A DNA stretch of 5,558 bases, from assembly GCA_030620115.1 (NCBI GenBank), contig JAUXFG010000215.1, forward strand, positions 1 to 5,558, written 5' to 3'. This DNA comes from Candidatus Fermentibacterota bacterium. GTDB lineage: Bacteria > JAFGKV01. This document shows, one piece after another, positions 2,686 through 5,544 of the stretch (positions are counted from its first letter, which is position 1; every line of letters starts with the position of its first letter). The notes beneath the pieces were generated by a model. That model saw nothing but the letters and a program-made list of their open reading frames with translations, had not been told where the DNA came from and searched no databases. The position numbers and the translations under genes are program-made.

Positions 2686-3095
2686 AACGAGCCATCTCGC
2701 GCGTCCGAAGCCAGAGCGGCGATCCGGAAATCAATATCGCCCCACTTCTGGACATGGTGTTCATACTGCTCATCTTCTTCGTAGTGACTACCGTTTTTGT
2801 CGAGGAGACCGGCATCGAAGTCCAGAAACCGACGGCTGGGTCTGCTCGAGATCTCGAGAAGAACAGCATACTCATCGCCGTCACGCATGACGGCAGAATC
2901 GTGTATGGGGGCCAGGAGTATTCTCTCAACGGGCTACGGGCCATCGTATCCCGGGAGCTCAGCCAACGCGAGATGCCGGTCATTCTCCTGGTGGATCGAG
3001 CTGCCCAGAGCGGCGCCCTGGTCGACGTGATCGACGAGTGTAAGCTAGCAGGGGCAAAGAATGTCAGCATTGCCGCCCAGAAGGAGAAGGTGTGA
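2682..3095 (+). CDS. exbD: ExbD biopolymer transport protein
   Basis: Partner of ExbB in the proton channel: a short cytoplasmic N-terminus, one membrane helix and a periplasmic domain. The 137-residue protein has the family signature EINIAPLLDMVFILLIFFVVTT at about 16-37. Asp24 in PLLDMVF corresponds by motif to the essential proton-path Asp25 of E. coli ExbD. The periplasmic part (about 40-137) keeps the pattern ILIAVTHDGRIVYGG, VILLVDRAAQSGALVDVIDE and AGAKNVSIA. The sequence after the helix (ETGIEVQKPTAG) is reminiscent of the ExbD2 subgroup from TonB2 clusters; this is a judgement by eye. No Shine-Dalgarno is visible before ATG 2682, so translation probably depends on ribosomes finishing exbB across the ATGA overlap. 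Its own stop overlaps the tonB GTG start. Confidence 0.95.
   Translation: MKRAISRVRSQSGDPEINIAPLLDMVFILLIFFVVTTVFVEETGIEVQKPTAGSARDLEKNSILIAVTHDGRIVYGGQEYSLNGLRAIVSRELSQREMPVILLVDRAAQSGALVDVIDECKLAGAKNVSIAAQKEKV
3081..3086 (+). promoter_or_regulatory. Ribosome-binding site of tonB inside the exbD end
   Basis: AAGGAG ends 5 nt before GTG 3092 and lies within the last codons of exbD. It supports the GTG start and the 4-bp GTGA overlap with the exbD stop. Confidence 0.65.
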
Positions 3096-3802
3096 TTTCT
3101 GAGACCAAGGAAGGATTCTACACAGGAGCTCGCTCCGCAGTACGATCCAGCCTACGAAGTGCAATCCTCGCGGTGATCCTTGCCGGCATCACTTTCTCGG
3201 TATTGCCGCTATTTGGCTTCCTGGCAGCCAAGAGTCACAAGAAAATGCACATCCGGCCTGCGCCCGATATCACGCTCCACCACCCTCCACCGCCTCCGAT
3301 TCGGCCGGAGAAGAAACCCCAGCGCCCAAAAGAACGCCCCAAGCTCAAGGACAAGCCAGAGCTCCGGCAACATCAGCACATAGAGGCATTGAGGATGGAT
3401 CTCGATCTGGGGATGTCGAGCCTCGCCAATGGAGTCGGTGATTTCTCACTCAGTTTCCGGGTTCACCAGGATCCGCTGGGAGACATTGGCGCTCAAGGTC
3501 CTCCTGTCTTCGATCTCTCGGAGCTGGATAGCCCTCCCAGGCCGTTGGTCCGGAGCCGCCCCATCTATCCATTCCGTGCTCGGGAGCAAGAGCTGGAAGG
3601 TTTGGTGCGACTTGTCTTCGTAGTGGAAGCAGATGGCGCCGTGAGTGAAGTACGAGTAGCACGTGCAGACCCCGAGGGTGTCTTTGACCGGGCTGCAATC
3701 GCAGCGATCCGGCGGTGGCGTTTCGCGCCAGGAACAAAGGGCGGGCAGCCGGTCCGCTCCCGAGTGAGTCTGAACCTGAGGTTCAATCTGGATGAGGGAT
3801 AA
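3092..3802 (+). CDS. tonB: TonB energy transducer (TonB2-like)
   Basis: Transmits energy from ExbB-ExbD across the periplasm to TonB-dependent outer-membrane receptors. The 236-residue protein starts at GTG. It has a cytoplasmic stretch of about 23 residues, one membrane helix (about 24-45, AILAVILAGITFSVLPLFGF), and a Pro/Lys/Glu-rich periplasmic spacer (about 56-90, with five consecutive prolines). A linker follows, then a C-terminal TonB domain (about 150-236). That domain shows SRPIYPFRAREQELEG, VVEADGAVSEVRV and AAIAAIRRWRFAPG, matching the YP, EG.V and WRF.P landmarks of the family. The membrane helix contains no His, so the SxxxH motif of classical E. coli TonB (Ser16, His20) is absent, as in many TonB2-type proteins. 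The gene is coupled to exbD. No TonB-dependent receptor is in the window, so the substrate is unknown. Confidence 0.93.
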   Translation: MISETKEGFYTGARSAVRSSLRSAILAVILAGITFSVLPLFGFLAAKSHKKMHIRPAPDITLHHPPPPPIRPEKKPQRPKERPKLKDKPELRQHQHIEALRMDLDLGMSSLANGVGDFSLSFRVHQDPLGDIGAQGPPVFDLSELDSPPRPLVRSRPIYPFRAREQELEGLVRLVFVVEADGAVSEVRVARADPEGVFDRAAIAAIRRWRFAPGTKGGQPVRSRVSLNLRFNLDEG

Positions 3803-3807
3803 GGGGA

Positions 3808-3833
3808 TGACAGGGGAGGGCTGTCCTCTGTCA
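3808..3833 (+). terminator. Strong hairpin directly after tonB, without a T-run
   Basis: TGACAGGGGA (3808-3817) pairs with TCCTCTGTCA (3824-3833) over ten pairs, one of them G-U, around the 6-nt loop GGGCTG. It begins 5 nt after the tonB stop. The downstream bases CAGGACAAGACG contain no T-run, so it is not a canonical intrinsic terminator. It may protect the exbB-exbD-tonB mRNA 3' end or lower expression of the downstream TPR gene. Confidence 0.45.
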
Positions 3834-3858
3834 CAGGACAAGACGTACATATCCTTCT

Positions 3859-3930
3859 ATGGAGGGCCATGCTCCGTCATGGCCGCCGTCAGTGCCAATA
3901 CTGCGGACGCGACGGAGCGCGTCCCTCCAT
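3859..3930. repeat. 72-bp cloverleaf-like palindromic element
   Basis: The element folds exactly into a four-way junction. The outer stem is ATGGAG (3859-3864) with CTCCAT (3925-3930). The first hairpin (3865-3884) is GGCCATG-CTCCGT-CATGGCC and the last (3905-3924) is GGACGCG-ACGGAG-CGCGTCC. Between them a 20-nt arm (3885-3904) can form a short CAGT/ACTG hairpin. The two 6-nt loops are perfect complements. Read as inverted repeats, the two 26-bp halves differ at six positions, and all six form three compensatory base pairs. A further half copy is at 5518-5544. It lies in the tonB-TPR spacer and carries a chance ATG (3859) in frame with the TPR gene. It is probably an interspersed REP/MITE-like repeat. 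The family name and mobility are unknown to me. Confidence 0.8.
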
Positions 3931-3957: not shown

Positions 3958-5286
3958 ATGAATAGAATGATACTATCGTTTGTTATTGGCGCCCTTCTGC
4001 TCCAAGGCGTTGAGTTATCCACTGCTTGGTCCGATGCCCATGGACATCATGATCGGCTTGATCCAAGGAATGAGCCCGTGGTTTCCAGGCGAGAGGCGGC
4101 ACTGCTTGAAGAGGTGGGCTCGCTCGTTCAATCGGACAGGCCCACAGCCATGGACAAGCTTGTTCAAGCAATAGACGAGGAATCATCGGCTGCCATGGAT
4201 TTCGCGTTGGGGGTATTCCTGACCCAGGAAGGCCGGCTTGCTGAGGCCGAGAGTGCATATGTCAGGGCTACTGATAAGTTCGCAGGATTTCGACGTGCCT
4301 GGGTCAATCTTGGGCGCGTTCGATTGTTGAGAGAGCGACCAGACGAAGCAGCCGATGCGCTTCGTGAGGCTGTGGGGATCGATGGGGACGATCCCGATGC
4401 CTGGAAGCTACTGGGTTACGCATACCTTCTTGAGGACAGATTGGCGGCGTCTGAGTCAGCATATCGGACCGCTTTGGTGTTCGCTCCTGACGATCCTGAG
4501 ATCGAACTGGGCCTAGCGAAGGTCCTGCTGAACACAGATCGGTTTCGAGAGGCGCTGCCGCTTATCAAGCATCAAGTCGCGGAAACGCCTATGTACGGAG
4601 AGCTCTGGCTCATTCTGGTGAATACACACATCGGCCTGGGAGATGAGAGCAAGGCCCTGGTTGCAATGGAAACAGCCTGGAGACTGGGGGTTCTCGAACA
4701 CGAACAACTGCTCACGCTCGGAGACCTCTATTTCAACTCCGGGCTCTACGCAAAAGCAATGGAACGATATCATGACGCCTTGTCTGGAGGCGCGGTGTCT
4801 CCGGATCGACTCTTGAGGTGTGCCGAGGCGCTTTTCCATGCCGACAGAATTGACGATGCATCAGAGTTCTTGGCCAAAGTTCAAGAAAGAGAGCTGTCTG
4901 ATCCAGCGAGAGCATGGAATCTCGCCGGTCGCATAGCGGAAGCGCGTTCAGAGACAGAGAATGCGAAAATCGCGTATCAGGCTGCGCTCACGGCAGATCC
5001 CCTCAACGCCGAGGCGCTCATGGCCCTGGCAATGCTTCAGCAGCGCTCGGGTGAGTATGAACTGGCAGCTCTCAATCTCGGGCGCGCCGCACGGTTAGAT
5101 GGATACGAAGCCAGAGCGCTGGTGCAACTTGCCCAGATGGAAGTTGAGCTTGATCGTTTCCAGCAGGCCGTGGAGCATCTCGAGCGTGCCCAACGTTCTG
5201 ATCCGGATCCAAGGGTGGCTCGCTACCTGAACGAGGTTCGACAGATCATCCAGATGAACCGCCACAGCGATCTCCAAACGCATTGA
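3958..5286 (+). CDS. Exported tetratricopeptide-repeat protein linked to the TonB operon
   Basis: A predicted periplasmic scaffold protein of 442 residues. Residues 1-25 form a signal peptide (MNRMILSFVIGALLLQG core, likely cut after AWS25). A His-rich patch DAHGHHD follows. Residues 78-418 hold ten TPR units in unbroken 34-residue phase, with one extra residue near repeat 8. Recognisable units include RRAWVNLGRVRLLRERPDEA, PDAWKLLGYAYLLEDRLAAS and AEALMALAMLQQRSGEYELA. A short charged tail ends the protein. ATG 3958 is chosen because it gives the signal peptide; the in-frame ATG at 3859 lies inside the palindromic repeat and would bury the signal. The ribosome-binding site is weak (AGGCGGG). 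The order ExbB-ExbD-TonB-TPR is recalled from TonB2-type clusters of other bacteria, where the TPR protein is thought to assist the system. The specific role here is inference; TPR proteins in general bind other proteins. Confidence 0.87.
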   Translation: MNRMILSFVIGALLLQGVELSTAWSDAHGHHDRLDPRNEPVVSRREAALLEEVGSLVQSDRPTAMDKLVQAIDEESSAAMDFALGVFLTQEGRLAEAESAYVRATDKFAGFRRAWVNLGRVRLLRERPDEAADALREAVGIDGDDPDAWKLLGYAYLLEDRLAASESAYRTALVFAPDDPEIELGLAKVLLNTDRFREALPLIKHQVAETPMYGELWLILVNTHIGLGDESKALVAMETAWRLGVLEHEQLLTLGDLYFNSGLYAKAMERYHDALSGGAVSPDRLLRCAEALFHADRIDDASEFLAKVQERELSDPARAWNLAGRIAEARSETENAKIAYQAALTADPLNAEALMALAMLQQRSGEYELAALNLGRAARLDGYEARALVQLAQMEVELDRFQQAVEHLERAQRSDPDPRVARYLNEVRQIIQMNRHSDLQTH

Positions 5287-5339
5287 TGATCCCCGATCTG
5301 ACAGTGGGGAATTCAGAGCAAAAATGAGCTCCCAATGTG

Positions 5340-5431
5340 CCCCGAAGGGGCTTGACATACCAGCCCAGGGGAAGCCCGATAGGGCGTAACCCTGGGGCAT
5401 GGTAACAAAATGCCCTCAGCCCTGACAGGGC
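5340..5431. repeat. Multi-hairpin intergenic repeat
   Basis: Three hairpin units occur in a row. CCCC-GAA-GGGG is at 5340-5350. CCCAGGG (5364-5370) pairs with CCCTGGG (5390-5396) and encloses GCCC-GATA-GGGC (5374-5385). GCCCT-GAC-AGGGC is at 5419-5431. This combination (CCCCGAAGGGGC, then AGCCCAGGG..CCCTGGG, then AGCCCTGACAGGGCG) resembles an interspersed repeat family I recall from Verrucomicrobia, Planctomycetes and other soil bacteria; no search was possible. It lies 53 bp downstream of the TPR stop and may also act as a transcript end, though no T-run is present. Confidence 0.6.
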
Positions 5432-5494: not shown

Positions 5495-5514
5495 CATTCA
5501 ACGTCGAAGTGAGG
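5495..5514. repeat. Second CATTCAAC..TCGAA motif
   Basis: CATTCAACGTCGAAGTGAGG is a diverged copy of the motif at 1902-1923, in the same orientation. It sits 3 bp before the half cloverleaf element at 5518, so the two repeat types are adjacent here. Confidence 0.35.
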
Positions 5515-5517
5515 ATG

Positions 5518-5544
5518 ATGGAGGGCCATGCTCCGTCATGGCCG
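5518..5544. repeat. Half copy of the cloverleaf element at the window edge
   Basis: These 27 bp are identical to 3859-3885: ATGGAGGG, then hairpin GGCCATG-CTCCGT-CATGGCC, then G. The following 14 bases differ from the first copy (TTGATGCTCGATAC), which fits a variable middle arm. The second half, if present, lies beyond the window. The orientation is the same as the first copy, so the two flank the TPR gene as direct repeats. Confidence 0.75.

Follow-up and report, generated by a model that had tools for sequence, protein, structure and literature searches.

The element at 3859-3930 of the window, a stretch of 5,558 nt that makes up the whole of contig C290, is a unit of the BIME/REPIN type in which two inverted REP hairpins are joined by a linker, and it very probably represents the non-autonomous, copy-numerous part of a REPtron. 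Elements of this kind, consisting of a REP pair served by a transposase, are already known; what differs from the published GTAG and GTGG is the recognition tag, GGAG. As a mobile repeat it is of an ordinary kind; what is uncommon is the head tetranucleotide, which also offers a testable lead on specificity. The striking hairpins are settled as two paired REPs served by a transposase, and many phyla carry GGAG-tagged REPs, which fall outside the GT[A/G]G rule by which REPs are sought.

Each REP unit comprises a 5'-TGGAG head, a perfect 7-bp stem without bulge and a 6-nt CTCCGT loop, with GGAG retained in nearly all copies in the source genome; the parts of the window copy and its neighbors are listed in Table 1. 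As the original prediction stated, 20 of the 26 positions are identical between 3859-3884 and the reverse complement of 3905-3930. The six that differ (half positions 9, 11, 12, 21, 22 and 24) form three compensatory pairs (C-G/A-T, A-T/G-C and T-A/C-G). These three changes are the difference between two REP subfamilies, designated A and B. Because the spacer upstream of the window copy resembles array spacers, this copy is probably the remnant of a REP array, and the hairpin shortly before the spacer is possibly a degenerate upstream REP.

Table 1. Features of the window around the REP pair
Feature	Positions	Strand	Details	Basis
Left REP, type A	3859..3884	+	Head TGGAG 3860-3864; stem 3865-3871/3878-3884 (GGCCATG/CATGGCC); loop CTCCGT 3872-3877	Own sequence, copies in own genome, covariation
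Linker joining both REPs	3885..3904	+	20 nt, weakly conserved; middle arm without support	
Right REP, type B	3905..3930	-	Minus-strand reading; head TGGAG 3929-3925; stem GGACGCG/CGCGTCC; loop CTCCGT 3917-3912	Own sequence, copies in own genome
Spacer	3832..3859	+	CACAGGACAAGACGTACATATCCTTCTA; resembles the unit-separating spacer of tandem arrays elsewhere	Compared by eye
Candidate degenerate upstream REP	3809..3825	-	Hairpin GACAG-GGGAGGG-CTGTC, shortly before the spacer	Sequence only
Upstream neighbor, TonB C-terminal domain protein	3092..3802	+		PF03544, 76 bits
Downstream neighbor, TPR protein	3958..5286	+		TPR families
Second type A REP, then start of an 18-nt-type linker	5518..5544	+	GTTGATGCTCGATAC	27/27 identical

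The element had been described as a cloverleaf, a picture of which the two hairpins are borne out and the middle arm is not. Instead of an arm free of unpaired bases, the linker alone folds into a stem of 5 bp and leaves six bases unpaired outside the loop; in 14 copies that share one linker length, pairing in the middle arm (74.3%) does not rise above that in shuffled letters (76.8%), which leaves it unsupported as a conserved stem. The supposed outer stem, TGGAG/CTCCA, is nearly invariant, and since TGGAG is the head of each REP, this invariance is no evidence for a stem. Covariation supports the REP hairpins themselves: among 40 distinct REP variants of the source genome, 92.5% of cells are paired, compared with 80.0% after shuffling, with 47 two-sided changes (0 of 500 shuffles). 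When full elements are considered under the two-hairpin model, the 24-copy set exceeds shuffles (1/500), and the 14-copy set, with a single two-sided change, shows no clear excess (71/500).

For the full 72 nt, the predicted minimum-energy structure is a single long, imperfect hairpin and not a clover, with either RNA (-42.4 vs -34.4 kcal/mol) or DNA parameters (-21.6 vs -18.4 kcal/mol), and Bertels and Rainey drew both hairpin and "clover" forms of REPINs (PMC3116915). It nevertheless appears rather unlikely that the functional fold is this single hairpin of paired halves, the hairpin form of a REPIN, and not two hairpins. In the sets of 14 and 24 full elements, 96.6% and 97.6% of cells are paired in the two-hairpin model, against 81.1% and 81.8% in the long hairpin, whose covariation is not above that of shuffles; although it is the energy minimum, the long hairpin was rejected as the conserved fold on the evidence of the substitutions in the copies. 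It may still form without being what the substitutions preserve. Overall, these substitutions support two separate hairpins over a middle arm or a single long hairpin.

Further copies of the element do exist. A whole-genome pattern with free stem positions identified at least 140 units in the source genome (75 forward and 65 reverse; the reversed-pattern control gave 0), and a covariance-model search returned at least 150 matches. Units occur singly, in pairs or in tandem arrays that repeat about every 97 nt and share a conserved spacer, the array sizes being lower bounds in an assembly fragmented into 296 contigs. Pairs of the A-linker-B form have linkers of 17-21 nt and fall into at least three groups according to their flanks. 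By crude ORF-based tests, 6 of 45 REP clusters lie inside a long ORF, leaving most of them intergenic, and clusters between divergent genes are rarer than in the background (2/28 vs 34/116). Among the features by which REPs are defined, high copy number, mostly intergenic placement and a hairpin-forming palindrome downstream of the tetranucleotide are present, the palindrome with covariation; the inverted REP pairs with a linker, often in tandem arrays, by which BIMEs and REPINs are recognized are likewise found. In four loci (L098, L099, L104 and L107), the right type B REP carries an additional ATCCGCCAGCTGGCGGA-like hairpin in place of its loop.

Uncompensated stem variation, which the original prediction had named as evidence against a maintained fold, is in part observed, with 39 one-sided stem changes in 130 copies. 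The stems are compensated from one subfamily or lineage to another, and not within each decaying copy. Given these uncompensated stem changes, many copies may be dead.

A search with the Pfam Y1_Tnp model detected four genes in the source genome, none flanked by the REP of the element. A survey of RAYT genes was conducted in 26 other genomes carrying this REP, in which 30 loci were first examined; at 7 of the 30 the same REP lies beside the RAYT gene, and at 6 of these 7 on both sides. The seven RAYTs belong to one clade of nine (support 98/98), whose other members are L264, with three copies of a degenerate REP form on one side, and L267, with a GGAG-headed element of related but different sequence on both flanks. 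A profile of the nine clade proteins retrieved one gene of the source genome (G000:C160:20667-21122; E 6.6e-73), which corresponds to an intact 159-aa frame, L014:753-1232, with arrays of A and B REPs immediately on either side, their units being near-identical. This match rules out an orphan REP without transposase, a reading derived from the Pfam search and the RAYT flanks. The L014 protein passes the cut-off of the NCBIfam REP-transposase model NF047646 (93.5 bits, cut-off 80) and falls below that of Pfam Y1_Tnp (18.9 against 23). It carries MPDHVHLF as its HuH motif, gives a match to crystal chain 4er8 of E. coli TnpA-REP (E 4.9e-6) and groups with the REP-linked RAYT clade (support 94/94). 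Some RAYTs of the GGAG clade thus escape Pfam Y1_Tnp at its cut-off, and a negative Pfam result does not amount to absence.

What is found here is therefore a HuH/Y1 RAYT flanked by the same REP family, the arrangement that defines a REPtron, and judged from sequence, the L014 RAYT and the GGAG-headed REPs form a complete one. The original prediction that the element might be the target of a REP-associated, RAYT-like transposase is well supported by the at least 140 copies, the RAYT between arrays and the association of RAYT and REP in other phyla, and the co-occurring transposase it had proposed to look for is present in the source genome as the L014 RAYT. An IS200/IS605 element was also considered and rejected; no transposase bounded by ends of its own and mobilized together with them in multiple copies was found, and one gene of the RAYT clade (245 bits; next match in the source genome, 64) stands against at least 140 repeats. 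Other RAYTs, including that of L051 in the source genome, adjoin REP types of their own, and the genome holds two REPtrons with different tags. The second RAYT, at 4722-5261 of L051 (the same place as L011), is flanked by GTAGGTCGGGTTAG-type REPs.

By analogy with the characterized TnpA-REP (PMC8266576), the RAYT, as a HuH nuclease whose catalytic tyrosine is single, would bind the single-stranded GGAG head together with its hairpin, cut the single-stranded DNA beside them and rejoin the strands. REP pairs would spread in this way, chiefly into intergenic DNA, and the window copy would be one insertion in the gap between the tonB-like and TPR genes. The differences between subfamilies A and B most probably originated in source elements that were subject to RAYT recognition, and were passed on as the element was copied.

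That the element is instead a structured RNA or mRNA element (an attenuator, stabilizer or small RNA), kept for its transcribed hairpins, is considered highly improbable, and the original suggestion to this effect gained no backing. The strand does fold well as RNA, with a folding-energy z score of -4.9 that was matched or beaten by none of 200 shuffles, and it lies between two co-directional genes. On the other hand, Rfam 15 contains no covariance model that matches at the element, even at E values up to 1, no tRNA or tmRNA was found in a search for these, and terminator-like or promoter-like sites around the element were likewise sought and not found. Among the one-sided mispairs of the 130 copies, G-T (17) shows no clear excess over A-C (14). 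In addition, the association with the RAYT by itself explains the copies, arrays and subfamilies, and therefore no RNA role is needed. E. coli REPs have known effects on mRNA, and the present element may have a comparable secondary effect.

A further alternative is that the hairpins are kept as a site on the chromosome, such as one for DNA gyrase or a nucleoid protein, and that the RAYT currently plays no role there. E. coli REPs bind gyrase, IHF and DNA polymerase I, as stated in PMC3686654, and few copies of the present family lie between divergent genes. This alternative is nevertheless regarded as very unlikely, as the 159-aa RAYT frame is intact and adjoins arrays whose units are nearly identical, and the assignment to a REPtron is preferred.

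The same REP is found in other bacteria. In a search of the PVC superphylum and other bacteria with the GGAG head fixed in the pattern and three base pairs left free, 126 of 143 elements among the matches listed were Watson-Crick at all three free pairs, for which the chance expectation is about 1/64; beside RAYTs, the GGAG head was recovered freely. The matches listed include Lentisphaerae, Kiritimatiellae, Verrucomicrobia, Planctomycetes, Armatimonadetes, Desulfobacterales and others. Two viral contigs (L255 and L256) also carry the REP pattern.

Published definitions of REPs give GT[A/G]G as the 5' tetranucleotide (PMC6006769 and PMC3686654), "most often GTAG" (PMC8266576), and REP-like elements without GT[AG]G have been allowed near classes 2.6 and 3 (PMC6006769). 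The elements described here carry GGAG at this place and depart from the strict form. Within the limited literature covered, the string GGAG is absent from the main text of PMC3733652 and from PMC8266576 and PMC6006769, and in the available portions of PMC2817692 and PMC3686654 it occurs only inside GT[A/G]GGAG stems and not as a head. A possible determinant of the head is the residue matching H101 of E. coli TnpA-REP, which has been discussed together with the guide-contact residues (PMC6006769). This position was compared in 49 RAYTs with readable heads, loci without readable heads being left out; the RAYTs came from searches with profiles of the GGAG clade and from genomes selected because they carry the REP, and a script read the heads, except those of L264 and L267, which were called by hand. 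RAYTs with GTAG heads have His in 22 of 23 cases, and those with GGAG heads have Thr (14), Arg (11) and His in none of 25; in one further RAYT the residue was unread. In the tree, the GGAG rows form one clade of 25 (96/88), with L276 in addition; L272, the partner of L276, has Arg with a GTAG head. Independent origins of GGAG were considered and set aside, with only one clear switch plus L276. Because the switch happened essentially once, the link between head and residue is correlative and is taken as a lead. It is tentatively proposed, with somewhat less than even confidence, that a RAYT clade of the PVC superphylum and other phyla switched its tag from GTAG to GGAG, that one contact residue, at the His101 position, helps to set specificity, and that searches restricted to GT[A/G]G would have missed this whole class. 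The correlation offers a simple test of how RAYTs read the guide tetranucleotide.

Compared with known systems, the E. coli BIMEs (Y, Z1 and Z2; PMC8266576, PMC6006769) share inverted pairs of two REP subfamilies, tandem mosaic arrays and a RAYT flanked by arrays; the division into A and B resembles that between the Y and Z REPs. The L014 RAYT resembles E. coli TnpA-REP as a HuH/Y protein matching 4er8, but has Thr at the residue corresponding to H101. The REPs themselves differ, with a GTAG head in E. coli and, here, a GGAG head, a stem without bulge and the CTCCGT loop. The REPINs of P. fluorescens (PMC3116915), for which clover and long-hairpin folds were both proposed, are similar in their REP doublet unit, fairly constant linker length and tandem clusters beside RAYTs, whereas in the present element the two REPs are of different subfamilies and the linker has no supported pairing. 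The GTAG and CGTC super-families (PMC3733652) are likewise tagged palindromes of high copy number, with GTAG types reported in the PVC superphylum; "GGAG" and "CTCCGT" are both absent from that paper's main text.

The window copy lies between two co-directional genes, tonB-like and TPR. For the TPR gene, the likely start is the ATG at 3958, after which comes a signal-peptide-like stretch; the longer listed ORF, starting at 3859, is unlikely because that start lies inside the REP. Among 60 genomes searched, two others belong to the same family as the source; in these two, a search with the tonB-like protein for an empty site gave a 43% partial match at best and no usable syntenic locus, and no transposition event was seen. 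The second type A REP of the window is truncated by the contig end at 5558.

Other repeats and genes were also observed in the window. A second, different repeat at 5325-5425 has 35 matches in the source genome, several of them lying some 100 nt away from a REP of type A, and gives a sub-threshold match to Rfam Acido-Lenti-1 (20.3 vs 37 bits). On the minus strand, a tyrosine-recombinase-like frame at 760-1739 is broken by one in-frame TAA (1122-1124); after it comes a second ORF of the integrase family, at 1-789 (PF00589). Short repeats of the AACATCGAAC/ATTCAACGTCGAA type occur at 1899-1920 and 5495-5518, and are also present just 5' of many elements with an 18-nt linker.
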